This document shows, one piece after another, positions 11,268-27,689 of a stretch of DNA of 42,582 nt; position 1 is the stretch's first letter; the number at the start of each line of letters is the position of its first letter. Where the stretch lies: contig JAFPME010000006.1 in the NCBI GenBank assembly GCA_017402445.1, forward strand, positions 1 to 42,582, in the 5' to 3' direction. Position numbers and translations under genes: made by a program. The stretch is from Prevotella sp. (GTDB taxonomy: Bacteria; Bacteroidota; Bacteroidia; Bacteroidales; Bacteroidaceae). The notes under the pieces were generated by a model. That model worked only from the letters and a program-made list of their open reading frames with translations. It was not told the DNA's origin and did not search any database.

Positions 11268-11325
11268 TGAGAGTTGAGAACAGAGAGTTGAGAGTTGAAA
11301 ACTGAGGATTGAGAACTGAGATTGT
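11268..11325. repeat. degenerate GAGAGTTGA simple repeat
   Basis: Imperfect GAGAGTTGA / GAGAACTGA / GAGGATTGA units, of the same general class as the degenerate repeats at 24757 and 41165. It lies next to palindrome element A. Confidence 0.6.
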
Positions 11326-11339
11326 AAAGATTTTTATAA

Positions 11340-11700
11340 AAAAAGCTACTCTGAAAAATTTTCTCTTTTTTCCAAAATGAATGCGGTTGTTTTGGTAAAA
11401 GAATCATACAAAACCTGAGTGTTTTTCATTTTGTTTTTCAAAACGGCCTGTTTTACTTTTCAAAACGGCCCGTTCTGCTCGCCAAAATGAATCATTCTGC
11501 GCGGCAAAATGGGCCATTTTAAAGAGTAAAACGGGCCATTTTGAAAGTCGGGAAAAATGTAAAGAAAATACAAGCCGCTTGATTTCAGCGTTTTAAAACT
11601 TTCTCATCATTCGCACGTACGTGTCCACCTGATTATTATTTTGGAAAAACGCCGTATTTTAGTAAAAATATGTTATTTCGTAAATATAATTCAGCAGTCG
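11340..11700 (-). repeat. interspersed palindrome element, copy A (inverted)
   Basis: Five 17-bp palindromes start at 11439, 11461, 11483, 11505 and 11527, an exact 22-bp period; for example CAAAACGGCCCGTTCTG and CAAAATGAATCATTCTG. The region 11544-11700, read on the minus strand, matches the left flank of copy B. Shared stretches include GAAATAACAT, TTTTCCAAAATAA, GGACACGTACGTGCGAA and TTTCTTTACATTTT. A looser match, including GGTTTTGT and ATTCTTTT, continues on the other side (11340-11438). It lies between the RteC-like gene and leuS. I cannot assign it to a known repeat family. Confidence 0.85.
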
Positions 11701-11890
11701 CACATCCTTGTCATAGCCCCTTCGGCCTACGCCGCTGTTCCGGTCGTTCCGCCGCCTACCAGTCGTCTTTTCCGATGAACGGGAACGCTCAAAAACGGCC
11801 CGAGCAGTCGCCTGCTTACCGTTGAAGGAATTGAAAGAGAGAGTAGGAAGGAGAAAAAATGTGAGATACAGATGCTAAACTCATATTTTT
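11701..11890. other. gene-free stretch before leuS
   Basis: Between palindrome element A and the leuS promoter I see no gene, RNA or convincing repeat. There are short GC-rich segments (around 11720-11760 and 11790-11810) with no clear hairpin. Confidence 0.5.
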
Positions 11891-11894
11891 TGTG

Positions 11895-11902
11895 TAAATT
11901 TG
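11895..11902 (+). promoter_or_regulatory. -7 element of leuS
   Basis: TAAATTTG matches TAnnTTTG and lies 47 bp before the ATG at 11950. No good -33 element is seen. The transcript start it implies (about 11909) excludes the in-frame ATG at 11872. Confidence 0.55.
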
Positions 11903-11949
11903 CAGCGGTTTTAATTGAAAAATTAAAAAAATATATACACAAAAAGACA

Positions 11950-14823
11950 ATGGATTACAATTTCAGAGAGATTGAGAAGAAGTGGCAGTCGCGCTGGGTG
12001 GAACAGAAAACCTACCAGGTGACCGAGGATGCAACGAAGAAAAAGTACTACGTGCTCAACATGTTCCCCTACCCCAGCGGTGCCGGACTGCATGTGGGAC
12101 ATCCGCTGGGATACATCGCCAGCGATATCTACGCGCGCTTCAAGCGCCAGCAGGGCTTCAACGTGCTCAACCCGATGGGCTACGATGCCTATGGCCTGCC
12201 TGCCGAACAGTATGCCATACAGACAGGTCAGCACCCGGCCATCACCACCGAGGCGAACATCAAGCGCTACCGCGAGCAGTTGGACAAGATAGGCTTCTGC
12301 TTCGACTGGGACCGCGAGGTGCGCACCTGCGAGCCGGGCTACTATAAGTGGACGCAGTGGGCGTTCCAGAAGATGTTCAACTCGTTCTACTGCAACAAAT
12401 GCCAGAGCGCGCAGCCCATTGAAAAGCTCGTCGCCCATCTGGAAGAAAAGGGAACAGAGGGTCTCGACGTGGCTCAGAGCGAGGAACTGTCGTTCTCGGC
12501 CGACGAGTGGAAGGCCATGAGCGAGAAGCAGCAACAGGAAGTGCTGATGAACTACCGCATTGCCTACCTGGGCGAGACGATGGTGAACTGGTGTGCCGGA
12601 CTGGGTACGGTGCTGGCCAACGACGAGGTGGTCGACGGCGTGAGCGTGCGCGGCGGCTTCCCCGTTGTTCAGAAGAAGATGCGCCAGTGGTGCCTGCGCG
12701 TGAGTGCCTACGCACAGCGTCTGCTCGACGGACTGGACACCATCGACTGGACCGACTCGCTGAAAGAGACACAGCGCAACTGGATAGGCCGTTCGGAAGG
12801 AACGGAGATGCAGTTTAAGATAGCAGAGGCCCCCCTGTCGTCCCCCGAGGGGGACACAAGTGTTCCTGCAACTAAAAGGCCCGATTCCTTCACCATCTTC
12901 ACCACGCGTGCCGACACCATCTTCGGCGTCACGTTCATGGTGCTGGCTCCCGAGAGCGAACTGGTGGACCAGCTGACCACTCCTGAGCAGCGCGCCGCCG
13001 TAGACGAATACCTGGCCTACGTGAAGAAGCGCACCGAGCGCGAGCGCCAGATGGACCACAAGGTGACGGGCGTCTTCTCAGGTTCCTATGCCATCAACCC
13101 GCTGACGGGCCAACAGATTCCTATCTGGATTGCCGAATACGTGCTGGCAGGCTACGGAACGGGCGCCATCATGGCCGTTCCGGCTCACGACTCGCGCGAC
13201 TATGCCTTCGCCAAGCATTTCAACCTGCCCATCGTGCCGCTCATCGAGGGCGCCGACGTGTCGGAAGAGAGCTTCGACGCGAAGGAGGGCATCGTGATGA
13301 ACAGCTCGAACGGCGAGTTCTCGCTCAACGGACTGACCGTGAAAGAAGCCATTCAGAAAACAAAAGAATACGTCACGGAGAAGCAGCTGGGCCGCGTGAA
13401 GGTGAACTACCGCCTGCGCGACGCCATCTTCTCGCGTCAACGCTACTGGGGCGAGCCGTTCCCCGTCTACTACAAGGACGGAATGCCCTACATGATTCCC
13501 GAGGAATGCCTGCCCCTGCAGCTGCCCGAGGTGAGCCAGTACAAGCCGACGGAAGACGGACAGCCGCCCCTGGGCCACGCCAAGAAGTGGGCCTGGGACA
13601 CCGCCACCTGTTCCGTAGTCGATTGTAGTACAATCGACAACAAAACTGTGTTCCCGTTGGAGCTGAGCACCATGCCGGGCTTCGCCGGTTCGAGTGCCTA
13701 CTACCTGCGCTATATGGACCCGCACGACGATCAGGCACTGGTGAGCCGCGAGGCCGACGACTACTGGCAGAACGTCGATCTCTACGTCGGCGGCACCGAG
13801 CATGCCACCGGTCACCTCATCTACTCGCGCTTCTGGAACAAGTTCCTCCACGACTACGGCGTGTCGTGCAAGGAAGAGCCGTTCCAGAAACTCGTCAACC
13901 AAGGCATGATACAGGGTCGCTCCAACTTCGTCTACCGCGACAACGTGGCCAGCAAGGAGAAGGGACACCCGGTGTTCGTGAGCTTCGGTCTGCGTAAAAA
14001 CTACGCCGACGTGACGCCAATCCACGTGGATGTGAACATCGTTTCGAACGACGTGCTCGACGTGGAGACCTTCAAACAGTGGCGCCCTGAATACAACGAC
14101 GCCGAGTTTGTGATGGAAGACGGCAAGTATGTCTGCGGATGGGCCATCGAGAAGATGTCGAAGTCGATGTTCAACGTGGTGAATCCCGACATGATCGTGG
14201 AGCGATACGGCGCCGACACACTGCGCCTCTACGAGATGTTCCTCGGTCCGGTGGAGCAGTCGAAGCCTTGGGACACTAACGGCATCGACGGCTGTCACCG
14301 CTTCCTGAAGAAATTCTGGAACCTGGCAACCAGTGCCGACAGCGATGCCGCCGCCACCAAGGAAGAGCTGAAAAGCCTGCACAAACTCATCAAGAAGGTG
14401 TCGCAGGACATTCCGCAATTCTCTTACAACACGAGCATCTCGGCATTCATGATCTGTGTGAACGAGCTGGCTGCGCTGAAATGCAACAACCGCGCAGTGA
14501 TGAAGACGCTGGCCACACTCATTGCACCCTTTGCCCCGCACATCGCAGAGGAGCTTCACGAGCTGCTGGGCGGCGAAGGCTCGGTGTGCGACGCACCGTG
14601 GCCCACATGGGACGAACAGTATCTGGTGGAGAACAGCGTCAAGCTGGGCGTTGCCTTCAACGGTAAGACACGCTTGGAGATGGAGTTTGCCGCCGATGCC
14701 GACAACAAGACGATAGAAAGCACCGTTCTGAACGACGAGCGTGCGAAGAAATACCTCGAAGGAAAACAGGTGGTGAAGGTGATCATCGTGCCGAAACGCA
14801 TGGTGAACATCGTTGTGAAATAA
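11950..14823 (+). CDS. leuS: leucyl-tRNA synthetase
   Basis: This 957-residue class I synthetase charges tRNA-Leu. It has the HIGH motif as H48-V-G-H51, preceded by [11 protein letters not shown]; the WIGRSEG entry to the CP1 editing domain (278-284); the editing motif [12 protein letters not shown]; the zinc-like/connective region; KMSKS at 735-739; and a C-terminal anticodon-binding domain ending in [14 protein letters not shown]. The start at 11950 ([13 protein letters not shown]) is the conserved one. Oddly, residues of about 292-311, between WIGRSEG and TIFTTR, are encoded by a GC-rich palindromic repeat (see 12823-12882) absent, as far as I know, from Bacteroides LeuS. The length is otherwise normal for bacterial LeuS of this group, and the gene should be active. 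The yitT, rdgB and porZ genes follow on the same strand. Confidence 0.97.
12823..12882 (-). repeat. GC-rich palindromic repeat inserted in frame within leuS, copy 3
   Basis: GTCCCCC-GA-GGGGGAC (12840-12855) is a perfect 7-bp inverted repeat. Read on the minus strand, CCCCCTCGGGGG followed by ACGACAGGGGGG repeats the layout of the intergenic copies at 31-60 and 8116-8142. It adds about 18-20 residues ([18 protein letters not shown]) between two conserved motifs of LeuS without breaking the frame. Confidence 0.7.
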
Positions 14824-14858
14824 GCTGCCAAGAGGCTGGGTGAAGCTCTGCCAGCACG

Positions 14859-14872
14859 CCGAGAGCGCTCGG
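14859..14872 (+). terminator. short hairpin after leuS
   Basis: CCGAG-AGCG-CTCGG lies 36 bp after the leuS stop. It has no T-run, so it is more likely a processing or attenuating hairpin than a full terminator. Transcription may continue into the YitT gene at 14962. Confidence 0.35.
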
Positions 14873-14961
14873 AATGTTTGAATATACCAAACAGCAGGTA
14901 TGCTTTTCCCAGTCTCTTCCGCCGAACAATAACTAAAAATCCTATATAGAAAGCAGATACT

Positions 14962-15882
14962 ATGGACAGACAATTATTGTGGAACGAAGTGAAGGACTAT
15001 GCAGGCATCACCATGGGCCTGATTCTCTACTCGTTCGGCTTCACGTTCTTCCTGATGCCCTACGAGATAGTGACAGGCGGTGTGGCTGGTATCGCAGCCA
15101 TCGTGGAGTATGCCACGAGCTTCCCGAACCAATACACCTACTTCCTGGTGAACTTCGCCCTGCTGGTGATGGCGCTGAAGATATTGGGACTGAAATTCCT
15201 GATGAAGACCATCTACGCCATCTTGATGCTGACCTTCCTGCTGTGGCTGATGAAACAGTTAGTACCGCGCGACGAAGCGGGCGTGATGATCAAGATACTG
15301 GGAGAAGGCCAGGACTTCATGTCGCTCATCATCGGGTGTATGATGACGGGTTCGGCGCTGGGCATCGTGTTCGTGAACAACGGTAGTACGGGCGGTACAG
15401 ACATCATCGCCGCTACGGTGAACAAGTTTTACAACATGTCGTTAGGCACGGTACTGGTGTTTGTGGACTTCATCATCGTTGGTAGCTGTCTGTTTATTCC
15501 TCAATTCGGCACGCTCCTGGAACGAGGCTACATGGTGGTGTTCGGCTTCTGTACGCTGGTAATCGAGAACTACATGTTGGACTATATCTACAATAGGCAG
15601 CGGTCGTCGGTGCAGTTCATGATTTTTTCAGACAAATGGCAGGAAATAGCCAACGCCATCGGCACACAGATGGACCACGGCGTGACCATTCTCGACGGTC
15701 ATGGCTGGTATACGGGTCAGAAACGGAAGGTGCTTTGCATCCTGGCAAAGAAGAACGAGAGCACGATGATATTCCGCATCATCAAGCATCTTGATCCGAA
15801 TGCGTTCGTTTCGCAGAGTGCTGTCATCGGTGTATTCGGCGAGGGTTTCGATGCCATCAAGGTGAAAGTGAACAAGAAATGA
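14962..15882 (+). CDS. YitT family membrane protein (second paralogue)
   Basis: This 306-residue protein has hydrophobic helices in residues 10-195 (GITMGLILYSFGFTFFLMPY, YFLVNFALLVMALKILGLKF, the GSTGGTDIIA loop, LVFVDFIIVGSCLFI). A C-terminal DUF2179 domain follows (SVQFMIFSDKWQEIANAIG, DPNAFVSQSAVIGVFGEGF). It aligns end to end with the YitT at 7176, sharing the long ALKILGLKF.MKTIY segment. The function of the family is not established. It is 43 bp upstream of rdgB and probably shares a transcript with it. Confidence 0.9.
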   Translation: MDRQLLWNEVKDYAGITMGLILYSFGFTFFLMPYEIVTGGVAGIAAIVEYATSFPNQYTYFLVNFALLVMALKILGLKFLMKTIYAILMLTFLLWLMKQLVPRDEAGVMIKILGEGQDFMSLIIGCMMTGSALGIVFVNNGSTGGTDIIAATVNKFYNMSLGTVLVFVDFIIVGSCLFIPQFGTLLERGYMVVFGFCTLVIENYMLDYIYNRQRSSVQFMIFSDKWQEIANAIGTQMDHGVTILDGHGWYTGQKRKVLCILAKKNESTMIFRIIKHLDPNAFVSQSAVIGVFGEGFDAIKVKVNKK

Positions 15883-15925
15883 ATGAAGTGAGGATTGAAA
15901 AAAACAAGCAGAAAGGAAAAAGAAT

Positions 15926-16513
15926 ATGAAAATTGTCTTTGCAACCAACAATGCACACAAGCTGTCGGAAATCAGAGGCATACTGGGTGAAAGCTTCGAA
16001 GTGCTATCACTGAACGACATAGGTTGTCATGAAGATATACCCGAAACGGGAACGACACTGGAAGAAAACGCTCTGCAGAAAGCGGAGTATATATATAATA
16101 AGTATGGTTACGACTGCTTCGCTGACGACACAGGACTGGAGGTGGAAGCCTTGAACGGCGAACCGGGCGTGTTCTCGGCGCGTTACGCCGGCGGTGAGGG
16201 TCACGACAGCGAGGCAAACATGCAGAAGCTGCTGCACAACCTGGAAGGAACAGAGAACCGGAAAGCTCGGTTCCGCACCATCATTGCCTTGGTGAGACGG
16301 GAAGAGGGCGGAACAGAATGCGTTCACCGGTTTGAAGGCATCGTGAACGGATGCATCACCAAAGAGAAAAGCGGTGCTGAAGGGTTTGGTTATGATCCCA
16401 TCTTCCAGCCTGAAGGTTACGACAAGACGTTTGCTGAGCTGGGAACGGAAGTGAAGAACAAGATTTCTCACAGGGCCAGGGCCGTTGGTAAACTTGCTGC
16501 GTTCTTGATGTAA
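15926..16513 (+). CDS. rdgB: XTP/dITP pyrophosphatase (RdgB/HAM1 family)
   Basis: This 195-residue cytoplasmic enzyme hydrolyses dITP, XTP and ITP to monophosphates and so keeps deaminated purines out of DNA and RNA. Family marks are the opening [14 protein letters not shown], then [17 protein letters not shown], the catalytic [46 protein letters not shown] and the closing [14 protein letters not shown]. The length is that of the family and the start follows a purine-rich AAAGGAAAAAG. It is the third gene of the leuS-yitT-rdgB series. Confidence 0.96.
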
Positions 16514-16562
16514 GCTGGCTGCATTCTTGCTGCAAGCTGGTCCGTTCAGCCGTTTGCGGCAG

Positions 16563-16581
16563 ACTGCGACAGTGTCGCAGT
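16563..16581. promoter_or_regulatory. 19-bp perfect palindrome upstream of the glycosyltransferase gene
   Basis: ACTGCGACA-G-TGTCGCAGT has perfect 9-bp arms around a single base and lies 20 bp before the start at 16601. Such symmetry suits a dimeric DNA-binding protein. As RNA it would form a short stem that might end rdgB transcription, but only TTTAC follows. Confidence 0.5.
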
Positions 16582-16600
16582 TTACTTAACAGAGAGGAAT

Positions 16601-17491
16601 ATGAAGAAAGAACTTTCCATATTGCTGCCTACGTATGAGTGTCTGTGCGTTGAACTGGTGAAGGAACTGCACAGACAGTGCGAACAATGTGCCATTCAGT
16701 ATGAAATCGTGGTGGCTGACGACGGTTCAAAGAACCGCTCCTGCGTGGAGAAGAACATCGAGATAGAACAGCTTTCAAACGTGGTTTATCTGAAGGAAAA
16801 GGTAAATCGCGGCCGCGCCGCCATCCGAAACCTGCTGGCTCGGTACGCACAATACGAATGGTTGATCTTCTGCGACGGCGACATGGGATTGGAAAACCCG
16901 ATGTTCATACAGAATTACTGTAACGCAGAAGGCAGTGTCGTCTACGGCGGCTACACTATTGGCAGCCGCAAAGGTGTCACGCAGCATAACCTCCGCTACG
17001 AATACGAGAAAGACTTCGAGCCTAACCACTCGGCAGAAAAGCGCCGTCAGCATCCCTACCACGACTTCCACACCAGCAATTTCCTCGTCCGACGCAGCAT
17101 CATGTTGGAACATCCCTTCGACGAACGCTTCCGGCACTACGGCTACGAAGACGTGTTCTGGGGCAAGGTACTGCTTTCAAACGGCATCTTTATTGCTCAC
17201 ATCAACAACCCACTATGCTTCATCGACTTTGAAAACAATCCGAACTTCGTGGAGAAGACAGAAGAGTCGCTGCGCACACTGAACGACTTCAGCGAGGAAC
17301 TGACAGACTATTCAGGACTGCTGAAGCTGACACAAAAACTAAAAAAACTGCATCTGCTGCCAATGGTTAATTTTTCATATAAAACAGTAGGCCAACTGCT
17401 TCGCAACAACCTCACAGGCAATAATCCGTGGCTTTTTCTGTTCTTTATATACAAGCTCATGTACTTCGTACATTTAAAGGAAAAGAAATAA
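16601..17491 (+). CDS. family 2 glycosyltransferase
   Basis: This 296-residue protein opens with LSILLPTYE, with D40-D41-G-S and then D92-G-D94, the metal/nucleotide-sugar ligands of the GT-A fold. GGYTIGSRKG, HDFHTSNFLVRRS and YGYEDVFWGK follow; the last corresponds to the usual ED catalytic motif. GT2 enzymes transfer sugars to lipids, polysaccharides or proteins; the donor and acceptor are unknown here. A purine-rich AGAGAGGAAT precedes the ATG, one of the few recognisable ribosome-binding sites in the window. The stop is 15 bp before porZ, so the two are probably translated from one mRNA. A role in a surface glycan handled by the type IX system is an inference from position only. Confidence 0.9.
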   Translation: MKKELSILLPTYECLCVELVKELHRQCEQCAIQYEIVVADDGSKNRSCVEKNIEIEQLSNVVYLKEKVNRGRAAIRNLLARYAQYEWLIFCDGDMGLENPMFIQNYCNAEGSVVYGGYTIGSRKGVTQHNLRYEYEKDFEPNHSAEKRRQHPYHDFHTSNFLVRRSIMLEHPFDERFRHYGYEDVFWGKVLLSNGIFIAHINNPLCFIDFENNPNFVEKTEESLRTLNDFSEELTDYSGLLKLTQKLKKLHLLPMVNFSYKTVGQLLRNNLTGNNPWLFLFFIYKLMYFVHLKEKK

Positions 17492-17506
17492 AAACAATCA
17501 CCCGAT

Positions 17507-19864
17507 ATGATCAAGAAAATCGTTCTGATGATAGCCGTGCTGATGTCATTCGTAACGGCACAGGCTGCTCAGGTGGGACAGTGGACCACCTATCTTCCCT
17601 ATTGGAACATCACCGACATTGAACCCGGACAAAACAAAATATTCGTGCTGGCATCGAAAAACCTCTATGCCTACAACACGAAAGACAACAGCGTGGAAGC
17701 CATTGACAAGACAAACATGCTGAACGACACCGACATTGACTTCATTGCCTGGTGCAACGATGCCAAAAGACTGGTCATCGTCTATAGCAACTACAACATA
17801 GACTTGCTGGACGAACAAGGCAACGTGACCAACATGTCGCAGTACTACTACAAAGGTATGACCTACAGCAAGAACATCAAGAACATATCTGTGAACGGTA
17901 TCTATGCCTATCTGACAACGGACTTCGGCATTCTGAAGATAGACGTGAAGAATGCTGCCATCAACAACACTTACATTCTGGACGACGAGATAGACGATGC
18001 CGTGAGCATGAACGGATACATCTACGCCATTGCACACACAATCAGGGACAGCAATAACAACATCACCCGCATGGGGTACATTATCAAAGGAAAGGAAAGC
18101 GAAAATCTGCTGAACAAGAACAACTGGGAGAAAACACTGGAAGAACATACATTCAACCGAATCTTCAACGTCAACGGACAGCTGATAACGGCCAGCGCGT
18201 TCTATATCGTCAAATACCTGAACTTGCCCGACCGGGAATTCCAGCCCATCTACATCCACGGCAGCTACCCGAACATCATGGAATCGTTCTGCTGCAACAA
18301 CGGTAAACTGATTGCCAACACCCCGGTGTCCTCCATTATCTGCGACAACGAAAACGTGCAGGAAGTGAACAGAGAGAACATCACCGTCATGGCATACGAC
18401 AAACAGCACAACAGCTACTGGTCCAACTACCAGACAAGTACGCTTCAAAACATAACAATCGATGAAAACGGACAGCTGACGACTACGCTGACCGGTATCA
18501 AGATGGACGGTCCGAAATGGAACTACCACTTCTTCAGCAAGTTCTTCGGCGACAAACTCTACACCACGGGGGGCGGCAACAGCAAAGGGTCGTACCTGTA
18601 CAGAAAAGGCTGCGTGCAGCGTTGGGACGGCGAAAACTGGAAAGTATTCCAAGAACAATTCGAGCTTGACAACAATTCTGAATACTACGATGCAAACGGC
18701 TTAGCCGTTGATCCACGCGACGAAAACCACGTCATGGTGGCAACACACTCGGGCATGTACGAATTTCAGGACGGCACGTTTGTCAAACAGTACAACATTG
18801 ACAACAGTCCGTTCTCGGAAGTGGACAGCAACGACCCGTACAACTACACCATCATCCACGCACTGCTCTACGAAGAAAACGGAGACCTCTGGATATTCCA
18901 CAACCGACGCACACGACAGCTGATCCTGCTGACGGCCGACGGCGAATGGGTGAACAAGACACCGACAGACTTCAGAAACACCATCAACGCCGCCGGCGGC
19001 ACGAGGTCGCTACGCTCGCCGTTCTTCGACAGCCGCGGTCTGCTGTGGTTTACCAACGACGACAGCGTCTTTCCGGCACTGTTCTGCTACAACAAACAGA
19101 CGGAATCGGTAACCATCTACAACAAGTTCATCAACCAGGACGGCACTGAAGTGTCGCTGTCGGCAGGTGCCGCTGCCGGTGTGCGCTGTGCCGTTGAAGA
19201 CAAGGAAGGCAACATCTGGATCTGCACCAACGTTGGTCCGGTGTACCTCAGTGCGTCCGAGATAGCCTCGAACGGCACTACGTTCACTCAGGTGAAGGTG
19301 CCGCGCAACGACGGTACGAACTTCGCCGACTATCTGCTGACAGGCGTTGACATCAGTTGCATGGCCATTGACGAAGCCAACCGCAAATGGTTCGGTACGT
19401 ACACAAACGGTGCCTACCTGATCAGTGCAGACAACTTGGAGGAAGTATACCACTTCACGACCGACAACAGCAGTCTGCTGGACAACAACATAGAGTCGAT
19501 CAGCATCAACAACAACACGGGTGAAGTGTTCTTCGGAACAGCTAAAGGACTCTGCTCGTTCAAGAGTGACGCCACGAAACCAGCGGACGAGATGGTGAAA
19601 GACGGAGTGTACGCCTATCCGAATCCCGTTCGTCCTGACTACACGGGACCCATCACGATTACCGGACTGTCGCAAAACGCCGACGTGAGAATTGTGACTT
19701 CGAGCGGTTCGCTCGTTGCCAAGGGCATCAGTACGGGCGGCAGCTACTCGTGGAACGGCTGCGACCTGAACGGCCGCCGCGTGGCCAGTGGTGTCTACAT
19801 GGTGCTGACGGCCACGAGCGACGGAAAGAAAGGCACGGTGTGCAAGATAGCCATCGTGAACTGA
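17507..19864 (+). CDS. porZ: PorZ-like component of the type IX secretion system
   Basis: This 785-residue protein has a signal peptide (about 1-20) and starts with VGQWTTYLPYWNITDIEPG, as in the PorZ family. Two beta-propeller-like regions follow (about 25-330 and 345-680), with repeated two-component-regulator-propeller motifs such as GNIWICTNVGPVYL, RKWFGTYTNGAYLI and NNTGEVFFGTAKGLCSF. Residues 701-785 form a type A C-terminal sorting domain, with YPNPV (704-708), GSYSWNGCDLNGRRVASGVY and a closing KIAIVN. In Porphyromonas gingivalis PorZ is surface-exposed and delivers anionic LPS to the PorU sortase, which fixes cargo to the cell surface. Its presence implies a type IX system in this organism, although no other component lies in this window. 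Confidence 0.85.
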   Translation: MIKKIVLMIAVLMSFVTAQAAQVGQWTTYLPYWNITDIEPGQNKIFVLASKNLYAYNTKDNSVEAIDKTNMLNDTDIDFIAWCNDAKRLVIVYSNYNIDLLDEQGNVTNMSQYYYKGMTYSKNIKNISVNGIYAYLTTDFGILKIDVKNAAINNTYILDDEIDDAVSMNGYIYAIAHTIRDSNNNITRMGYIIKGKESENLLNKNNWEKTLEEHTFNRIFNVNGQLITASAFYIVKYLNLPDREFQPIYIHGSYPNIMESFCCNNGKLIANTPVSSIICDNENVQEVNRENITVMAYDKQHNSYWSNYQTSTLQNITIDENGQLTTTLTGIKMDGPKWNYHFFSKFFGDKLYTTGGGNSKGSYLYRKGCVQRWDGENWKVFQEQFELDNNSEYYDANGLAVDPRDENHVMVATHSGMYEFQDGTFVKQYNIDNSPFSEVDSNDPYNYTIIHALLYEENGDLWIFHNRRTRQLILLTADGEWVNKTPTDFRNTINAAGGTRSLRSPFFDSRGLLWFTNDDSVFPALFCYNKQTESVTIYNKFINQDGTEVSLSAGAAAGVRCAVEDKEGNIWICTNVGPVYLSASEIASNGTTFTQVKVPRNDGTNFADYLLTGVDISCMAIDEANRKWFGTYTNGAYLISADNLEEVYHFTTDNSSLLDNNIESISINNNTGEVFFGTAKGLCSFKSDATKPADEMVKDGVYAYPNPVRPDYTGPITITGLSQNADVRIVTSSGSLVAKGISTGGSYSWNGCDLNGRRVASGVYMVLTATSDGKKGTVCKIAIVN

Positions 19865-19892
19865 CACGTCATGAGTGATGTAAAAAAATGGC

Positions 19893-19922
19893 TTTCCCAC
19901 TCTACAGATGACGATTGGGAAA
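19893..19922 (+). terminator. weak hairpin after porZ
   Basis: TTTCCCA (19893-19899) pairs with TGGGAAA (19916-19922) across a 16-nt loop, 30 bp after the stop. There is no T-run after it. Confidence 0.3.
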
Positions 19923-20285
19923 ACGCTGAATAATGCTTACAAAATAACATTTATTATACGAAATTACGGCCGGTTTTCCAAAATAAAAGTCAGGCGGACG
20001 CGTATGAGCGAAATATGAGAATGTTATAAAGCACTGAGAAAAAGCGACTTGTGTTTTCTTTACATTTTCCGGGCTTCCAGAATGACTCATTCTGCACGCG
20101 AAAACGGCCCGTTCTGCTCGACAGAATGAATCATTCTGAACGGCAAAACGGGCCGTTTTGCGATGTAAAATGGGCCATTTTGAAAAACGGAAAGAAAAAT
20201 CTTCCGGTTTTGTTCCATTCTTTTGACAAAACGAGAGCTTCCGTCATCGTAGAATGAAAGAAAATGAGAACCCGTTTTTTCGGTA
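19923..20285 (+). repeat. interspersed palindrome element, copy B
   Basis: Five 17-bp palindromes start at 20078, 20100, 20122, 20144 and 20166, an exact 22-bp period: for example CAGAATGACTCATTCTG, CAGAATGAATCATTCTG, CAAAACGGGCCGTTTTG and TAAAATGGGCCATTTTG. Changes are paired across each arm (A-T against G-C at positions 3/15, C-G against T-A at 6/12, G-C against A-T at 8/10). The left flank (19923-20077) matches copy A for about 150 bp and copy C for about 90 bp. The right flank (20183-20285) has a looser match to both. It fills most of the gap between porZ and nadA; I see no coding potential in it. Confidence 0.88.
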
Positions 20286-20340
20286 TGAAATGTTGACAAT
20301 CACCGTTCTCCGTTCTCAACTTTCTTTTGTCATGCCAGTT

Positions 20341-20368
20341 CCCAAAAAGTAATAACACGTTTGTTATT
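20341..20368 (-). terminator. probable terminator of nadA
   Basis: On the minus strand AATAACA-AACG-TGTTATT is followed by ACTTTTT. The stem is AT-rich but perfect, and the T-run follows at once. It lies 60 bp after the nadA stop. Confidence 0.5.
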
Positions 20369-20427
20369 GCCCTTAGGCTTTCGCCGTCTCACGTTTACCG
20401 GGAACGATGAAACATCCCAGACAGGCG

Positions 20428-21426
20428 TTAACTCAGGCTGAGCATGCGCTCAATGGGCTTCACGGCCTCGCGGCGCACTTCCTCGGGCACATCGACCACA
20501 GGCCACTCGTACTTCAGCGTATTATAGATTTTCTGGAGCGTGTTCATCTTCATATAATCGCATTCGTTGCAGTGACAACCAACAGACCCTTCGCTGACTT
20601 CGGGCGGAACGGGATAGAACGTCTTGCCTTCACACTGCCGCTCTATCTCGTGCAGGATGCCTGCTTCGGTGGCAATGATGAACTCCTTGTGCTCGCTTTC
20701 TATGCAGTACTTCAGAATGACTGCCGTGGAACCCACCACGTCGGCCAGTACCAGCACCGGGCCCTTGCACTCTGGATGGGCCAGCACGACGGCATCGGGA
20801 TGCTCTTCCTTGAGACGTAGGATGGCTTCAGGCGAGAAACGCTCGTGTACATGGCATCCGCCTTGCCACAAGAGCATCTTCCTGCCCGTGATGCTGTTGA
20901 TGTAGCTGCCCAGGTTGTAGTCAGGACCGAAGATGATTTTTGCATCCTCGGGGAATGTATCGATGATTTTCTTCGCATTGCCGCTGGTGACCACCACGTC
21001 GGTCAGTGCTTTCACGGCAGCCGTCGTGTTCACATAGCTCACCACCTCGTAGCCAGGATGCTCGTCTTTGTATTTCTTCAGGTCCTCAGCCTTGCAACTG
21101 TCGGCCAGCGAACAGCCGGCATTCAGGTCGGGACAGAGCACAAGCTTTTCCGGACAGAGTATCTTGCACGTCTCGGCCATGAAATGCACGCCGCACATGA
21201 CGATGACCTTCGCATCCGTACGGGCTGCCTGCTGTGCCAGTGCCAGTGAGTCTCCGATGAAGTCGGCCACTTCCTGTACTTCGCCCCTGGTGTAGTAATG
21301 GGCGAGGATGACCGCATCCTTCTCCTTAGCCATTCGTCTGATTTCAGCCTTCATGTCCGTTCCTTCTTCTACGGGTTCGTCGATGAATCCTTTCTCCTTC
21401 CACACTTTTTTGATTTCCATAATCAT
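20428..21426 (-). CDS. nadA: quinolinate synthase
   Basis: This protein of about 332 residues condenses iminoaspartate with dihydroxyacetone phosphate to quinolinate in NAD synthesis, using a 4Fe-4S cluster. Visible marks are AVILAHYYTRGEVQEVADFIGDSL, MCGVHFMAETCKIL, PDLNAGCSLADSC, VVAHPEC-type ligands (VLAHPECKGPVLVLADVVGST), GTEAGI-like IIATEAGILHEIE and CHCNECDYMKMNTL. The ATG at 21426 (MIMEIKK) or 21420 (MEIKK) is the likely start; reading further upstream adds 27 residues that look untranslated. The partner genes nadB and nadC are not in this window. Upstream lies the AT-rich spacer with DnaA-box-like sites. Confidence 0.95.
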   Translation of the reverse strand: MIMEIKKVWKEKGFIDEPVEEGTDMKAEIRRMAKEKDAVILAHYYTRGEVQEVADFIGDSLALAQQAARTDAKVIVMCGVHFMAETCKILCPEKLVLCPDLNAGCSLADSCKAEDLKKYKDEHPGYEVVSYVNTTAAVKALTDVVVTSGNAKKIIDTFPEDAKIIFGPDYNLGSYINSITGRKMLLWQGGCHVHERFSPEAILRLKEEHPDAVVLAHPECKGPVLVLADVVGSTAVILKYCIESEHKEFIIATEAGILHEIERQCEGKTFYPVPPEVSEGSVGCHCNECDYMKMNTLQKIYNTLKYEWPVVDVPEEVRREAVKPIERMLSLS

Positions 21427-21518
21427 TATATTTTTAGTTTTTATTTTTTTAAAAAAAAGAATGATCTGTATGATATGCCGTTGAAAAGTGCAAAACTTTT
21501 TCAGCAAATGCTTGCGTA

Positions 21519-21783
21519 TTTCATTATCAACTTGAGAAAATGGTTTATCAACATTTCTTTCTGATTGTTATTCTTTTATTCATAGGTGATTAAGTAGGTT
21601 TTCCACTTTTTCCTTTTTCGGTGCAAATATAATAAGTTTATATCTTTTTCCGTTAAAAATCGTGGAAAACTTTTCTTTTATCACTTGAAAACTTGGTTGA
21701 TTTCCACATATATCGGGTTGGAAAAAGGAACGCCGTGGATATGCACAGACTTATCCACGGCGTTTTCCACAAAGTTATCCACA
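21519..21783. other. AT-rich spacer with a 12-bp-periodic row of DnaA-box-like 9-mers (possible origin)
   Basis: Four 9-mers lie head to tail at an exact 12-bp spacing: ATATGCACA (21739), TTATCCACG (21751), TTTTCCACA (21763) and TTATCCACA (21775). The last is a perfect match to the TTATNCACA DnaA box; the others are one base off. Further near-matches lie to the left: TTATCAACA (21545), TTTTCCACT (21599), TTTTCCACG on the minus strand (21661-21669) and ATTTCCACA (21700). An AT-rich stretch (21622-21660) sits between them. This is the layout of a replication origin (boxes plus unwinding element), but dnaA and dnaN are not in view. Confidence 0.45.
21731..21762 (-). terminator. terminator of the histidine phosphatase gene, overlapping DnaA-like boxes
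   Basis: CGCCGTGGATA (21731-21741) and TATCCACGGCG (21752-21762) form a perfect 11-bp stem with a 10-nt loop. On the minus strand it is followed by TTCCTTTTTCC and lies about 32 bp after the stop at 21794. The right arm contains the TTATCCACG 9-mer. Confidence 0.65.
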
Positions 21784-21793
21784 CTCTTGGTGG

Positions 21794-23077
21794 TTATTCC
21801 TGATAGCTGTCGAGCTTCTGCAGATAGTAGCTTCTGACGTCCTCCCATTTATAATAAGGTGACAGACTTTGGTCACTCAAGGGCAGCGTGGCTTCGTCTT
21901 CGTTGAGCAGCACTTTGACGAGCAAGGGTCCTTTTTTCTTGTTTCGGTAGAAGATGAACTGAATGTTGGCTCCCATGGGGAAGATGTTGTAGTTGTGCCA
22001 GCCGCTGGCATTGACCTGGTTGAGGTCGTCGATGGGTTCTCCGTAGCCGTTGAGGTTGAGCAGACAGGTCAGCGGCATGACCATGGTTTCATGTCCGAAG
22101 CGTAGTGTTGCTCCCGGATGTTCAAGCTGCAGGCATGAGTCGGCCTGCTGTATGATGTTTCGGAGCAGGTTGCGCTGTGAGAAAGGCTGTACGCCGCCGC
22201 TGAGTGGTGAGGGTCCGTAGGTGATGTACCACCATGCATTGGCTTGCTGCCAGAATTCGTAGAGCTCTTCCTTGGTGAACAGGTCGTAGAGTGTGATGTC
22301 TTTTCTCAGTTCAGTGCTTTGCAGGTTGCAGGCATGTTTGAAGAGCAGGCTGACGAGCCGTTCGCCATCCACGTCGTAAGTAGCGTAGTCGTTGTCATTG
22401 AAAAGCGAGTTGAGCACACGGCTGTAGTTGTTGTGCTGACGTTTGTACTCGTCGTATTTCAGCTGTGCGCGTCGTGGCATCTTCATGTTGTACAGCTTGT
22501 CGTCTTGCTGATTCATGAAGTACATGTCGTGTTCGCTGGCATCGTGAGTGATGCGCAGTCTGGGATTCTTGATGAGCAGCTCCTGCAGTTCGTTTTCCAT
22601 GGACAATATGCAGCGGATGACCACAGTGCTCTTGGCATCAATGCAGACGTCGCCTTGGAATACTTCCGGGAATCGTTCGTACATGCGGCGTGCTATCTGG
22701 CGGTGTTGCAATGCGCCCAAAGGCGACAGTTCGCCTGTTCGTTTTCTGGCTTCGTTGCGAATCATGTTCATTCTGCGCAGCACGTCCTTGCCCAACGGTG
22801 AGAGTTTGTTGAGGCTGTCTGCCTTTTCGAGTGTCTGAACGGGCCAGTTGTAGTCTGTGTCGCCAATGAGGTAGCGCGACCCATGTCGGCCATAATGGCT
22901 GATGTAGAACGGCTGATAGCCTTTCGGTGCTTTGGTGAGTTGCTTCTGCGGTCCCCTGTATGCCAGATAGTTGCTGCCCGTCAATGCGATGTTCTGCATG
23001 ATTTCCTCTTTTGCTTCCTGTGCCATGGCTGTCAGCATGAAGCCCGCCATGATGGTTCCCAAGACTATTCTTTTCAT
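21794..23077 (-). CDS. secreted histidine-type phosphatase (acid phosphatase/MINPP-like)
   Basis: This 427-residue protein has a signal peptide (about 1-19, ending AMAQ). The catalytic R64-H65-G-S-R68 motif is in YISHYGRHGSRYL, where His65 would carry the phosphate. A conserved C-terminal half contains LRFGHETMVMPL, in which HE replaces the HD of classic acid phosphatases. HxE forms are known in multiple inositol polyphosphate phosphatases, including a Bacteroides enzyme, so phytate or another phosphate ester outside the cytoplasm is a reasonable substrate; this is an inference. A -7 element lies at 23211-23218 and a good terminator follows the gene. The neighbours give no further hint. Confidence 0.85.
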   Translation of the reverse strand: MKRIVLGTIMAGFMLTAMAQEAKEEIMQNIALTGSNYLAYRGPQKQLTKAPKGYQPFYISHYGRHGSRYLIGDTDYNWPVQTLEKADSLNKLSPLGKDVLRRMNMIRNEARKRTGELSPLGALQHRQIARRMYERFPEVFQGDVCIDAKSTVVIRCILSMENELQELLIKNPRLRITHDASEHDMYFMNQQDDKLYNMKMPRRAQLKYDEYKRQHNNYSRVLNSLFNDNDYATYDVDGERLVSLLFKHACNLQSTELRKDITLYDLFTKEELYEFWQQANAWWYITYGPSPLSGGVQPFSQRNLLRNIIQQADSCLQLEHPGATLRFGHETMVMPLTCLLNLNGYGEPIDDLNQVNASGWHNYNIFPMGANIQFIFYRNKKKGPLLVKVLLNEDEATLPLSDQSLSPYYKWEDVRSYYLQKLDSYQE

Positions 23078-23448
23078 TATTATAATATGTAAAGGTTTTG
23101 AATAATACTCTGTATTCTTTTTGTATTGTGTGTTTCAGCGTTTTCGGTGTACGCATTCTCAAGGTGTTCGGAATGAAAGCAGTAAAGTTGCTGAGACACC
23201 GGCACACTTGCAAATATATGGTTTTTCCGCGAATTGGCGTATAAACAGAATCCTAATTTAACATTCTTTGATTGGTATTATACACATGGTTATCCACATG
23301 ATTGTTGACTTGAGTTTTTTATTGTTGTACCTTTGCAATGTCAAACGGAACAAGGGGCTTCTGAAAAGATGATGAGCGCTCGGCCCTGATGCGACGTGCG
23401 ACAGAGTGAACCAATCTTAATAATCATCCATTAAAAACAAGAAAAACT
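23078..23448. other. divergent promoter region between the phosphatase and HU-like genes
   Basis: This 371-bp region holds a minus-strand TATATTTG (23211-23218) for the phosphatase, giving an untranslated leader of about 125 nt. It also holds a plus-strand promoter for the HU-like gene (23305-23335) and one more perfect DnaA-box 9-mer, TTATCCACA at 23290-23298, just upstream of that promoter. No gene is visible in it. Confidence 0.6.
23305..23335 (+). promoter_or_regulatory. promoter of the HU-like gene
   Basis: TTG (23305-23307), 20 nt, then TACCTTTG (23328-23335), a full TAnnTTTG match. The DnaA-box-like TTATCCACA at 23290-23298 lies directly upstream and could let DnaA influence this promoter. 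The implied leader is about 105 nt. Confidence 0.7.
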
Positions 23449-23922
23449 ATGAGTATTTTTTATCGTTTGCAGAAGAACAACATGAAGGAGACCAAGATGT
23501 TTGGTAAGTGGTATGGAAAGGCTGTGCACACCGATGTAGTGAACACTGCGAAGCTGGCTGCCACCATGCAAGAGAACTGTACAGTGAAGCATTCTGACAT
23601 TCTTGCCGTGCTGACCGAGCTGGTGGCCACGATGAAGAAGGAGTTGCTCGACTCGAAGCGCGTGAAGATCAACGGTCTGGGCTCGTTCAAGGTCAGCATT
23701 TCGAGCAGTGGCGTGAACAATCCGAAGGACTATTCGGCGAAGGACTGCGTGAAGCGTTTCCGCGTGCTTTTCCAGCCTGAGATCAGTTTTGATGAGAATG
23801 GTCACCGCTCGCACGAACTGTTGCGAGGAGCGAAGGCCCAGGAGCTTCCGAAGAATGCAGTTGACAAGAGCGAGGGAGCTGACGACGATCCTGCTGCTGG
23901 TGGCGACGATCAGAATCCTTAA
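23449..23922 (+). CDS. HU-like DNA-binding protein (HU-HIG type)
   Basis: This 157-residue protein has residues 1-120 resembling the HU/IHF fold in the variant common in Bacteroidetes. The match runs through GKAVHTDVVNTAKLAATMQE, DILAVLTELVATMKKELLDS, the turn VKINGLGSFKVSISSSGV and then VKRFRVLFQPEISFD. The DNA-gripping arm is therefore present. An acidic, low-complexity tail (about 130-157, rich in Asp, Ala and Gly) follows. These proteins bend or coat DNA; many copies per genome are usual in Bacteroidetes and their separate roles are unknown. It has its own promoter and a strong terminator. Confidence 0.85.
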   Translation: MSIFYRLQKNNMKETKMFGKWYGKAVHTDVVNTAKLAATMQENCTVKHSDILAVLTELVATMKKELLDSKRVKINGLGSFKVSISSSGVNNPKDYSAKDCVKRFRVLFQPEISFDENGHRSHELLRGAKAQELPKNAVDKSEGADDDPAAGGDDQNP

Positions 23923-23956
23923 TCAGCTGCTGTCTGTAAAAAGGACATGAAGAACA

Positions 23957-23987
23957 GGGGTGTGCCTACGGGCATGCCCCTTTGTTT
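23957..23987 (+). terminator. terminator of the HU-like gene
   Basis: GGGGTGTGCC-TACG-GGCATGCCCC forms a 10-bp stem with two G-T pairs and a stable TACG-type loop, followed by TTTGTTTTC. It lies about 35 bp after the stop. Confidence 0.8.
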
Positions 23988-24046
23988 TCAGATGAGGCTG
24001 AGCTGGTAGAGATTTTAATAAAGTAGAAATAAAAAGGTGTGTTTCG

Positions 24047-24078
24047 TTTTGTGTTTTAATCACTTATTTGTATCTTTG
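24047..24078 (+). promoter_or_regulatory. promoter of the gene at 24107 (and probably rpoN)
   Basis: TTTTG (24047-24051), 19 nt, then TATCTTTG (24071-24078): a near-perfect Bacteroidetes promoter. The transcript would start near 24085, after the in-frame ATG at 24068 and before the ATG at 24107, which fixes the start of the gene. Confidence 0.8.
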
Positions 24079-24106
24079 CAAAAAGAATAAGAGAAAACGA
24101 AACATC

Positions 24107-24763
24107 ATGGCAAACAACAGCAGATTGTGGTCGGATGAGTACTGGTTGCTGCTCATGCAACTGTACCTGAAAAAACCGGAAGGACTGAAGCCTATCTATT
24201 CGCGACCCATGGTAGAGCTGGGTCTTGAGTTGCATATTGAACCAGCGTTTCTTTATGAGCAGATGTTCAAGCTTAGGCAACTGGAGACACCGCGCATGGA
24301 AAAACTGTGGGAGCGCTACGGCAACAATCCGAAACGTCTGGCCAAAGGCGTAAAGCTGCTGAGAGCCATGAAAGGCATGGGCAACGCGGAACAGTTCTAT
24401 GAAGGAGTGGAAACACAGGAACAGTTGTGGGAACAGGACTTCAAGCCGTTGGAAGAAGAACCGTCGCTCAAACCCGTGATGCTGTTGTTGACGCTCGACT
24501 TGTATTTCCGTCTGACACCCAACACGATGGTTGCAGAAACTCCCGAGATACAGGAACTGGCACGACTGATGCGTGTGAAGGAAGCAAAAGTGGTCGAAAT
24601 CATGGACATCTATCAGGTGTGCGACCCTTATCTGAACCGCTCAGAGATTGTGTTGAGTCCGTTGTTGCGGGCTTGTCAGCGGATGTGGAATCGTTTCGGC
24701 AACGCCAATCCTGAAAAGCTGGCAGCTCTCGCTGCTCAGATGAAGGAATACTTTAGGAGTTAA
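24107..24763 (+). CDS. conserved-looking hypothetical protein upstream of rpoN
   Basis: This 218-residue soluble, mostly helical protein has no signal peptide, membrane helix or metal motif. Segments such as LWSDEYWLLLMQLYLKKPEG, LELHIEPAFLYEQMFKLRQLE and FGNANPEKLAALAAQMKEYF suggest packed amphipathic helices. A helix-turn-helix-like stretch (ETPEIQELARLMRVKEAKVV, about residues 145-164) could contact nucleic acid, but this is weak. I do not recognise a family. It shares a strong promoter with, and lies 99 bp before, rpoN, so a link with sigma-54 control is possible. Its stop codon is supplied by the start of a simple repeat. Confidence 0.7.
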   Translation: MANNSRLWSDEYWLLLMQLYLKKPEGLKPIYSRPMVELGLELHIEPAFLYEQMFKLRQLETPRMEKLWERYGNNPKRLAKGVKLLRAMKGMGNAEQFYEGVETQEQLWEQDFKPLEEEPSLKPVMLLLTLDLYFRLTPNTMVAETPEIQELARLMRVKEAKVVEIMDIYQVCDPYLNRSEIVLSPLLRACQRMWNRFGNANPEKLAALAAQMKEYFRS

Positions 24764-24805
24764 GAGTGAAGAATTAAGAATTAGGAGTTAAGAGTTAAGA
24801 ATTAT
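24757..24805. repeat. degenerate GTTAAGAATTA repeat overlapping a stop codon
   Basis: Units such as AGAGTTAAGAATTA recur several times. The TAA at 24761-24763 that ends the preceding gene is inside the first unit. The same unit type at 41165-41262 ends another gene in the same way. Confidence 0.7.
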
Positions 24806-24862
24806 CAAAGCAAACAATTTGTAAACTCGTTAACGAAAGTAACAATTGTCAACTAAAGATAT

Positions 24863-26371
24863 ATGTCGCAGAGACTAATACAGAGCCAGGAGCAGAAAAT
24901 GGTGCAGCAGCAACGGCTCACCCAGCAGCAGATGCTGCAGGTGAAGCTGTTGGAAATGCCGTTGGCAGAACTGGAAGAAAGCGTCCGCACGGAACTGGAC
25001 GACAATCCGGCTCTGGAGTCGCAACCCATGGACGACGTGCAGGACTACGACAGCGAGGCTGATGGAGGTTCCGACATGTTGTCGGACGACGGTGCTCTGG
25101 ACGACTATGAGCGTGAAGAGCGTCAGGATGCTTTGGATGCTGCCTTGGAACGGCTGGGTGGTGACGATGAAATGCCAGAGCCTTCGATGTATGGCAGACA
25201 GAACAACCAGAATGCTGAGTATGAGGAGATCACATACGGCGACCGTACTTCTTTCTATGACACATTGCGCGAGCAGATGGTGGAGACACAACTTTCGGAT
25301 GAGGAGCGCGAAATCATGGAGTATCTGATCGGTTCACTCGACGGTGATGGTCTTCTGCGCAAGAAAATAGATGATCTGTGCGACGAATTGGCCGTACATT
25401 TCTATATCAATGTATCGGAAGAGGAGGTGGAGAAAGTGCTTCACAAACTCCAGGAATTCGATCCGGCTGGCATCGGAGCCCGTTCGTTGCAGGAATGTCT
25501 GTTGTTGCAGGTGGCACGCCGCGAACCTTCGTCTCTTCGTACGTTGATGCAGCAGGTGATAGAAGAGTGCTTCGACCTCTTCATGAAAAAACAATGGGAC
25601 AGGATTGCCCACCAACTGAGCTTGACTGAAGAAGCCATGAGCGTGGTAAGACAGGAAATATTGAAGCTGAATCCTAAACCGGGATCATCGCTCGGAGAAA
25701 CGGAAGGCCGCAGCATACAGCAGATAACGCCTGACTTCATCGTGGATACATCTGACGACGGAACGGTGACGTTCACTATAACACGTGGCAATGTGCCTGA
25801 TCTTTACGTGTCGCATGAATTTGCCGACATGGTGGATGAGTACCATCGCAACAAGGAGAACATGAACCGACAGCAGAAAGAGGCACTGCTCTATGCCCGC
25901 GAGAAAGTGGAACGGGCCAAAGGATACATTGAAGCAGTGAAGCAACGTCGCAGAACGCTGTTTATCACCATGAAGGCAATCATCGATCTTCAGAAAAAGT
26001 ATTTCCAGGATGGCGATGAAAACGATTTGCAGCCGATGGTTCTCAAAGATGTTGCTGAACGGACGCAGCTCGACATCAGTACAGTGTCGCGTGTATGCAA
26101 TGCAAAATATGCTCAAACACGATGGGGAACGTTCCGTCTGCGCCATTTCTTCAGCGAGGGTGTACGGACAGAAGGAGGTGTAGAGACGAGCATTCGTCAG
26201 CTGAAGCTGGTGTTGCAGGACATTGTGAAGGGTGAGGACAAGCATAAACCTATGAATGACGACGAACTGGCTGACGAAATGAAGAAGCGTGGATTCCCCA
26301 TTGCGCGTCGTACGGTGAGCAAATACCGCATGCAGTTGGGAATACCTGCTGCACGTCTGCGAAAAGAATGA
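24863..26371 (+). CDS. rpoN: RNA polymerase sigma-54 factor
   Basis: This 502-residue protein shows the order of sigma-54 regions. A Gln-rich N-terminal activator-interacting region comes first (RLIQSQEQKMVQQQRLTQQQ ... LKLLEMP-type segment, residues 1-45). It is followed by an acidic linker (about 60-110), the core-binding region (about 125-310), and the DNA-binding HTH (VLKDVAERTQLDISTVSRVC). The RpoN box is A481-RRTVSKYR-489, one residue from the canonical form. Sigma-54 needs enhancer-binding ATPases to open promoters; none is in this window. The gene probably shares the promoter at 24047-24078. Confidence 0.97.
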   Translation: MSQRLIQSQEQKMVQQQRLTQQQMLQVKLLEMPLAELEESVRTELDDNPALESQPMDDVQDYDSEADGGSDMLSDDGALDDYEREERQDALDAALERLGGDDEMPEPSMYGRQNNQNAEYEEITYGDRTSFYDTLREQMVETQLSDEEREIMEYLIGSLDGDGLLRKKIDDLCDELAVHFYINVSEEEVEKVLHKLQEFDPAGIGARSLQECLLLQVARREPSSLRTLMQQVIEECFDLFMKKQWDRIAHQLSLTEEAMSVVRQEILKLNPKPGSSLGETEGRSIQQITPDFIVDTSDDGTVTFTITRGNVPDLYVSHEFADMVDEYHRNKENMNRQQKEALLYAREKVERAKGYIEAVKQRRRTLFITMKAIIDLQKKYFQDGDENDLQPMVLKDVAERTQLDISTVSRVCNAKYAQTRWGTFRLRHFFSEGVRTEGGVETSIRQLKLVLQDIVKGEDKHKPMNDDELADEMKKRGFPIARRTVSKYRMQLGIPAARLRKE

Positions 26372-26424
26372 GAGCATGAAACAGCCAGAAACAACAGAAA
26401 TCCTTTATGAAAGAGCATTGAGAG

Positions 26425-27042
26425 ATGAGTGAGCGTAACATCATTTTCATAGCCAAAGTGCTGAGCGCATTTTTCAATCCATTTTACCTGCCGGTAGTGG
26501 GACTGATTCTTCTGTTCATATTCAGCTATATGCAACAGATGCCGATAGGCTACAAGTTTCAAGTAGTGACTGTGGTCTATCTTTGCACGGCTTTACTGCC
26601 CACCTTGCTGATTCGTCTCTACCGGCATTACCAGGGCTGGACGCTGATGGAACTGGGCACGCGAGAGCGACGCATGATTCCTTATATCATTGCTATCATG
26701 TGTTATTTTCTCTGTTTCTATCTGATGGATGTCCTGCGCATTCCTCATTTTATGTGCAGCATTGTCGTGGCTGCTTTGAGCATACAGGTCATCTGTGCCC
26801 TGATTAACCTTTCATGGAAAATCAGTACCCATTCGGCTGCCATCGGTGGCGTGGCAGGTGCACTGGTGGTCTTCTCGCTCGGCTTCCGGTTCAATCCCGT
26901 ATGGTGGCTCTGTCTGGTCATTATCGCAGGAGGACTGGTGGGTACGAGTCGCATGATCTTGCGTCAGCATACACTGGCACAAGTGGTCAGTGGTTTTCTC
27001 TTGGGTGCGTTCATCTCATTTGTAGCCATCCTTCGTTTCTAA
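26425..27042 (+). CDS. PAP2-like membrane protein
   Basis: This 205-residue protein has six hydrophobic helices. The C-terminal half carries PAP2-superfamily signatures: S-T-H136-S in WKISTHSAAIGG (the PSGH-type motif) and S175-R176 ... H182 in TSRMILRQHTLAQVVSGFLLG (the SRxxxxxHxxxD-type motif, with Gln in the last position). The first motif (Lys/Arg-rich RERRMIP, about 80-86) is also recognisable. PAP2 proteins remove phosphate from lipid phosphates such as phosphatidate or undecaprenyl pyrophosphate; the replacement of the final Asp leaves activity open. It follows rpoN by 53 bp and precedes purE by 35 bp. Confidence 0.78.
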   Translation: MSERNIIFIAKVLSAFFNPFYLPVVGLILLFIFSYMQQMPIGYKFQVVTVVYLCTALLPTLLIRLYRHYQGWTLMELGTRERRMIPYIIAIMCYFLCFYLMDVLRIPHFMCSIVVAALSIQVICALINLSWKISTHSAAIGGVAGALVVFSLGFRFNPVWWLCLVIIAGGLVGTSRMILRQHTLAQVVSGFLLGAFISFVAILRF

Positions 27043-27077
27043 ACTGAAAAAACTATTTTTTTTATATCATATACAGA

Positions 27078-27587: not shown

Positions 27588-27689
27588 TGCCGTTTCTCTC
27601 TTTTCTTACATGAATGCTATCTATTATGATTGATAAAGGCAGAGGTATTTCATGAATGATTGTATTAATGTGAATAAAACAACTGGTCG

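Follow-up and report, generated by a model that had tools for sequence, protein, structure and literature searches.

Five palindromes phased at a 22-bp period in a high-copy intergenic repeat of Prevotella, probably related in design to PINSR: a putative platform for a dimeric DNA-binding protein

What kind of element is repeated three times in a 42,582-nucleotide stretch of Prevotella DNA, each time carrying five short palindromes at the same spacing, and what might such a spacing serve? The stretch – from here on, the window – is contig C23 of the genome that we call G000 (a MAG of 1.87 Mb, 50.7% complete). The initial annotation had described five 17-bp palindromes with 5-bp linkers, i.e. 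a period of 22 bp, in each of three copies, A, B and C, with copy A inverted relative to the other two. We scanned the entire window for sets of five evenly spaced 17-bp dyads, at periods from 16 to 30 bp. At period 22 the top three places are arrays B, A and C (37, 33 and 29 of 40), the fourth scores 22, and the maximum in 50 dinucleotide shuffles is 25; at the remaining periods the best score is 30, inside a 14-bp satellite near 42.4 kb. The described array starts are exact in all three copies, the geometry is far above chance, and the inversion of copy A is confirmed (Table 1). A flank common to the copies is present as well, but its proposed length of 90–150 bp is too short: as read by eye, copies A and B have in common a block of ~375 bp with recognisable ends. 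The window also holds 14-bp tandem repeat arrays of the ATAATTCATAATGC and TTAACTCTTAATTC types at 42373-42582, 41183-41259 and 24752-24805, the first of which runs off the contig end.

Table 1. Features of the three element copies in the window (positions in nucleotides from its first letter; R1 is the model defined in the text).
Feature	Position	Strand	Remarks
Copy A, element	11321..11693	-	inverted; ends approximate: left from similarity to copy B, right by eye
Copy A, R1 model match	11424-11625	minus	
Copy A, five-unit array	11439..11543	-	17-bp units at 11439, 11461, 11483, 11505, 11527; dyad score 33/40
Copy B, element (young subfamily)	19927..20300	+	ends approximate, from alignment of young copies and end searches
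Copy B, five-unit array	20078..20182	+	units at 20078, 20100, 20122, 20144, 20166; dyad score 37/40
Copy C, element (older subfamily)	38945..39310	+	ends uncertain; flank compared by eye with L038-type copies
Copy C, R1 model match	39017-39213	plus	
Copy C, five-unit array	39098..39202	+	units at 39098, 39120, 39142, 39164, 39186; dyad score 29/40
Segment bounded by inverted copies A and C	11424..39213	.	ends joined the other way round in G224

When G000 is searched with one unit sequence at two mismatches or fewer, there are 168 forward and 166 reverse matches, as compared to 2 and 3 for the reversed control. From 37 distinct copies (202 nt aligned in 204 columns) we built R1, a model of 202 positions that uses sequence alone; it finds 78 places above 100 bits, approximately one per 24 kb, and one split place, a 79th copy in which six units can be read by eye. 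The 105-bp array fits without gaps in 78/78 strong copies. All five units are kept, with at most one mismatch in the six arm letters, in 77 of the 78, and a weaker unit lies in register beside the five in 31. The proposal of an interspersed element with constrained geometry is thus borne out by 78 indel-free copies, far beyond the three seen at first, and the 22-bp period is kept elsewhere in the genus (see below). The array has one internal variation: unit 3 with its two linkers (the central 29 bp) occurs in both orientations, in 36 and 42 of the 78 arrays, and its orientation score has two peaks.

Such a high copy number is also what one would expect of the main rival to a binding platform, a selfish non-autonomous mobile repeat (MITE- or REPIN-like), in which a trans-acting mobilising protein would bind the array, the host would gain nothing, and conservation would merely reflect copies that were active recently. 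There is, indeed, a young subfamily of 22 copies (copy B counted) that are at least 83% identical to copy B, with common ends and imperfect subterminal inverted repeats, copy B itself included, as judged by eye. However, end matches in G000 invariably fall within 51 bp of an array (28/28 on the left and 31/31 on the right), so no gene-carrying version is seen in this about half-complete genome, and no target-site duplication is visible by eye at copies with distinct flanks. With the conservation and turnover data described below also weighed, we regard the selfish reading as possible but rather unlikely. By eye, some young copies (e.g. L009, L012 and L022) are flanked on either side by a ACGCCAGTT-like motif that has the same orientation on both; it is perhaps an older nested repeat.

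The arrays lie outside long coding regions. Using a mechanical ORF caller, we find no overlapping ORF of at least 100 aa for 52 of the 78 arrays in G000. Eight overlapping ORFs are longer than 160 aa, and in each the array coincides with the mechanical start or lies no more than 144 nt from it, these starts probably being called too early; the other 18 are 155 aa or less. Gene context in G000 is mixed: of the 67 copies flanked by called genes on either side, 26 are in convergent, 17 in divergent and 24 in tandem placement. In a second genome, G084, where 8/37 arrays lie within mechanical ORFs of at least 100 aa, gaps of 190 bp or more hold an array in 14/24 convergent, 2/19 divergent and 13/51 tandem cases, array-bearing gaps being long partly owing to the array itself. 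Since placement in G000 is mixed, the convergent bias of G084 is not general. Nineteen arrays of P. nigrescens, classified by eye after two of 21 matches were dropped as chance-like (L320:4574 and L322:26260), are 4 convergent, 2 divergent and 13 tandem, with two inside small hypothetical CDSs.

The bias in G084 is nevertheless of the kind that a structured RNA or terminator at gene ends would produce, and the arrays do fold: in all three window copies, the 105 nt form one long hairpin on either strand, at -33 to -62 kcal/mol (z -3.7 to -11.3). Against an RNA speak the mixed placement in G000, the lack of Rfam matches other than to a tRNA, and the terminator-like sites of copy B, one found versus 0.9 expected. 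Neither the unit hairpins nor the unit pairs of the long hairpin covary, as detailed below. We consider an RNA or terminator function very improbable.

The 78 copies give the unit consensus c-A-R-A-A-y-G-r-n-y-C-r-T-T-Y-T-g, in which A4, A5, G7, C11, T13 and T14 are near-invariant; the linkers are fixed in length and variable in sequence. Symmetric positions within a unit hold 2499 complementary cells as compared to a mean of 2502 with shuffled arms, and the sole clear excess is at positions 8/10 of unit 1 (62 observed versus 43 expected). The two arms thus vary almost independently in sum, which argues that base pairing, be it in an RNA hairpin or in a cruciform, is not the feature that is conserved; as far as can be judged from the alignment, the dyad looks like the sequence symmetry of a site for a dimeric protein rather than a base-pairing constraint. 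The long hairpin fares no better: its unit pairs show no covariation (z 0.65), and complementarity between linkers that face each other in register is below expectation (z -6.3). With the linkers shifted by one base it is above expectation (277 versus 215 and 252 versus 192), an excess that may be explained by the two orientations of the central segment. Despite the strong fold, then, the missing covariation leads us to reject an RNA hairpin or cruciform as the conserved feature, and the string of hairpins that had been put forward as one of two options is not supported.

Which positions, then, are held in place? As conserved positions could be chosen circularly, we defined the invariant set in one half of the copies and scored terminal-branch changes in the other. 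Changes affect 1.2% of invariant-set unit positions, 9.0% of other unit positions and 10.6% of linker positions, and over 200 splits the lowest linker-to-invariant ratio is 5.3; the invariant positions change approximately 5–9 times more slowly than the linkers, in a test that is only partly independent because the training and test halves are related. Slow change is limited to this set: unit positions outside it change nearly as fast as the linkers. Conservation on terminal branches would be unexpected for the decaying dead copies of a selfish repeat. The degenerate unit positions change by 134 transitions versus 45 transversions, as compared to 53 versus 49 in the linkers. A wedge model predicts a curvature of 106 degrees for the array versus 45 in shuffles, but the best period is 21 (185), followed by 20 (122) and 22 (117).

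How far does the design extend beyond G000? In a genus sample of 398 genomes (G000 counted), the sequence-specific model R1, with six candidates scored per genome and rough E-values, has a match at E of 0.001 or lower in 109, many of them with one weak match, and none in 289. Among the 28 best loci outside the close relative G224 (L070–L097), 24 fit five units at 22 bp with no more than 6/30 arm-letter mismatches; the four exceptions include L078 and L085, where arrays with other arms can be seen. The palindromes at these loci vary between species. When no sequence model is used, 80 tryptophanase neighbourhoods (1.48 Mb) yield 14 five-dyad arrays scoring at least 25 at period 22, versus 1–6 at each of the other periods from 17 to 30, an excess that is gone at lower thresholds and is small with an arm-based detector. 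The period stands out more sharply in individual genomes. Evenly spaced samples of G084, 400 kb in total, contain 41 five-unit arrays with the 22-bp period (~1 per 10 kb), as compared to 0–1 for every other period from 16 to 29. G194 has 13 such arrays in 200 kb and none at other periods, 5 of its 10 stretches having been picked at known matches, which precludes a density estimate. In 200 kb of G061 (probably P. koreensis; one stretch picked at a match), 11 arrays are detected by dyad score at 22 bp, versus 0–3 at other periods, and no five-unit array is detected by the arm-based method; the arms are therefore not universal.

At the level of the order, a broader model, R2, matches 15/393 genomes (G000 counted), mostly once and weakly, and several of these matches are at best repeats of 18, 20, 21 or 23 bp. 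Outside the family, G749 is the only genome with R2 matches that clearly resembles the design, with 10 matches among those listed. This genome, from another family of the order, has four AAAACCTATCGTTTT-type units at 22 bp at loci L303 and L316. The window element has no blastn match in plasmid or phage records, and the G084 element has none in phages. Common to all arrays are dyad units at a 22-bp step; there are five of them in G000, and the arms are A/T in most species seen.

Arrays with such a period are familiar from iterons: at plasmid origins, direct repeats with a period of ~22 bp place several protein sites on one face, in a single array beside a rep gene. The period is similar, but here the units are palindromic and there are ~80 dispersed copies. 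REP, BIME and REPIN repeats are species-specific in sequence and form hairpins, and the genomes that carry REP or REPIN repeats typically encode a RAYT (Y1) transposase. While they too are short intergenic palindromes in many copies (PMC3733652, available text), the window element shows no summed compensatory change over 78 copies, one symmetric pair excepted, and, unlike them, has five phased units per element. Within the Bacteroidales, the BrickBuilt MITE of Porphyromonas gingivalis is an intergenic repeat composed of a leader, a short-period internal repeat and a tail, and the accessible part of its description reports that leader-to-tail forms without the repeat are absent (PMC4596501). 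Its 19 copies contain 1 to 22.8 direct repeats of 23 nt without spacers, whereas the units here are palindromic, 22 bp apart with 5-bp linkers, and number five in 77/78 copies.

The closest described repeat is PINSR, which is intergenic, 188 bp long and reported from two P. intermedia strains (177 and 184 copies) as well as from P. nigrescens, P. falsenii and P. disiens (PMC4755523; DNA Res 2015). According to the available text of that report, PINSR is non-coding and mostly absent from strain-specific mobile elements, one copy is placed downstream of tnaA, some inversions and translocations lie between PINSRs, and the function is given as unknown. The same text describes PINSR as clade-specific and without terminal inverted repeats, and uses 'palindrom' for CRISPR only, leaving palindromes in PINSR undescribed in the part available.

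In G084, whose TnaA shares 98% identity with the P. falsenii protein, an array with the 22-bp period lies immediately downstream of tnaA. A conserved 189-bp block is common to the 37 model-found elements of G084 and is bounded by GTAAAGATAATTC and GAAAAATATTTAC, which are inverted at 10/13 bases; these imperfectly inverted ends set it apart from PINSR as reported, while the length is close to 188 bp. The G084 element matches 12 places of a P. nigrescens replicon, 299 kb of which contain 21 four-unit arrays at 22 bp versus 0–1 at other periods, with no array in a 50-kb stretch that is mostly conjugative transposon, and a 22-bp-period array is present in P. falsenii as well. Because PINSR-positive P. 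nigrescens has the arrays and G084 has one downstream of tnaA, PINSR is very probably the P. intermedia-group version of the 22-bp design, a conclusion drawn from array geometry and gene position.

Like PINSR, the window element is high-copy, intergenic, non-coding and found at some rearrangement sites. It differs in being ~375 bp long and in having other palindromes, and the P. nigrescens replicon is among the plasmid records in which it has no blastn match; and while PINSR is clade-specific by report, other members of the genus have the 22-bp design, as opposed to the PINSR sequence. We take the window element to be a related design that differs from PINSR in sequence. The earlier statement that no named family has this design holds in part: our literature search on palindromic or interspersed repeats in Prevotella found no description of a phased palindromic array, nor did one on nucleoid proteins with palindromic sites in Bacteroidetes, within the text available, but PINSR is very probably of the same design. 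Neither the phased arrangement of palindromes nor its occurrence across the genus is described in the literature that our search covered; the neighbouring repeat was already known.

The close relative G224, with ~36 copies of the element, makes it possible to see how the array changes between species. The palindrome centres are species-specific: TGACGCA is the centre of 44/120 units in G224 and of 0/390 in G000, the G224 count covering 24 copies with a locus, excluding L069 as being of the G000 type and including copy L297, which was placed two units off, so that two of its five windows are non-units. L069, on G224 contig C15, is a single young copy of the G000 subfamily, possibly a recent transfer or a binning artefact. 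Seven pairs of G000 and G224 arrays share at least one flank, most of them one only; both flanks are common to L272/L036 and L270/L121, and also to L291/L109, where the array is inverted. Every G224 array of the seven pairs has at least one TGACGCA unit and none of the G000 partners does. The partners differ at 17/210 arm, 87/245 centre and 55/140 linker positions. The L270 (G224) and L121 (G000) loci are 98% identical over ~3.1 kb, element included, with the centres of units 3 and 4 being of the G224 type at one locus and of the G000 type at the other.

Is the new centre a response to a changed protein? In six pairs the flank-sharing partners are no closer to each other than random pairs (ranks 31, 3, 4, 69, 1 and 76 of 78, the last being unreliable since identity was computed ungapped and the flank of copy A has a one-base insertion), and flank identity is higher within species (0.70) than between species (0.62). 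As judged from these comparisons of sequences, the whole element is evolving in concert, as a selfish repeat also could, which means that no protein is required to explain the new centre; drift, carried along by turnover, may suffice.

The same comparison brings in another explanation, that the arrays are sites of recombination or rearrangement, being recognised as such or breaking as cruciforms and thereby joining distant loci. When two 20-kb pieces of the window are aligned with G224 (contigs C30 and C33), collinearity is lost at copies A and C. The first junction connects window position 11841, read leftwards, with 39712, and an array lies between them; the second connects 11078 with 38766, from where the window again runs leftwards, and contains no array. 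From the two junctions together we infer an inversion of ~27 kb between A and C, with further rearrangements inside the segment. A tRNA gene on the minus strand (38629-38700) adjoins copy C and one of the junctions. Among the five other pairs, three have a 96–100% identical flank that stops at the element on one side. Both inversion junctions at copies A and C, these abrupt flank ends, the occurrence of the central unit and its linkers in either orientation (42 and 36 copies) and, in the text available, the inversions and translocations between PINSRs (PMC4755523) all agree with such a role. On the other hand, any repeat promotes rearrangement, the loci that we examined were picked for carrying the element, and one of the inversion junctions is without an array. 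We consider rearrangement as the function of the arrays improbable.

The explanation that best fits the geometry and the conservation is one of the two options of the initial annotation, dimers arrayed cooperatively along one face of the DNA, the binding being putative. The element is a non-coding interspersed repeat that carries, as its payload, five operator-like palindromes in phase. A putative homodimeric, sequence-specific DNA-binding protein would occupy each 17-bp site and, with the 22-bp period being close to two helical turns, five dimers would line up on one face, where they could bind cooperatively and form a compact nucleoprotein platform. Such platforms might act as chromosome-organising or insulating sites. 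Spread and homogenisation of the element within a genome, by turnover or gene conversion, would give each species its own palindrome centres. To the core of this proposal – that PINSR-class repeats are cooperative same-face platforms for a putative dimeric DNA-binding protein – we give roughly an even chance. More tentatively, and as a possibility that we think falls short of probable, the platforms may constitute a genus-wide system of chromosome marking, with tens to hundreds of platforms of the same geometry per species read by a fast-evolving dimeric protein; the common 22-bp phase, the A/T arms of most species, the species-own centre and the rewriting of loci together would be the traits of such a system.

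PINSR has been on record since 2015 with its function unknown, and the array design offers a testable mechanism for it and for related repeats, namely a protein that binds five phased palindromes. As two close species have different centres, co-evolution of repeat and protein can be tested directly, and the elements sit at rearrangement breakpoints. If the chromosome-marking reading is true, Prevotella would provide a case of co-evolution between a bacterial repeat and its binding protein that marks self DNA or folds the chromosome.
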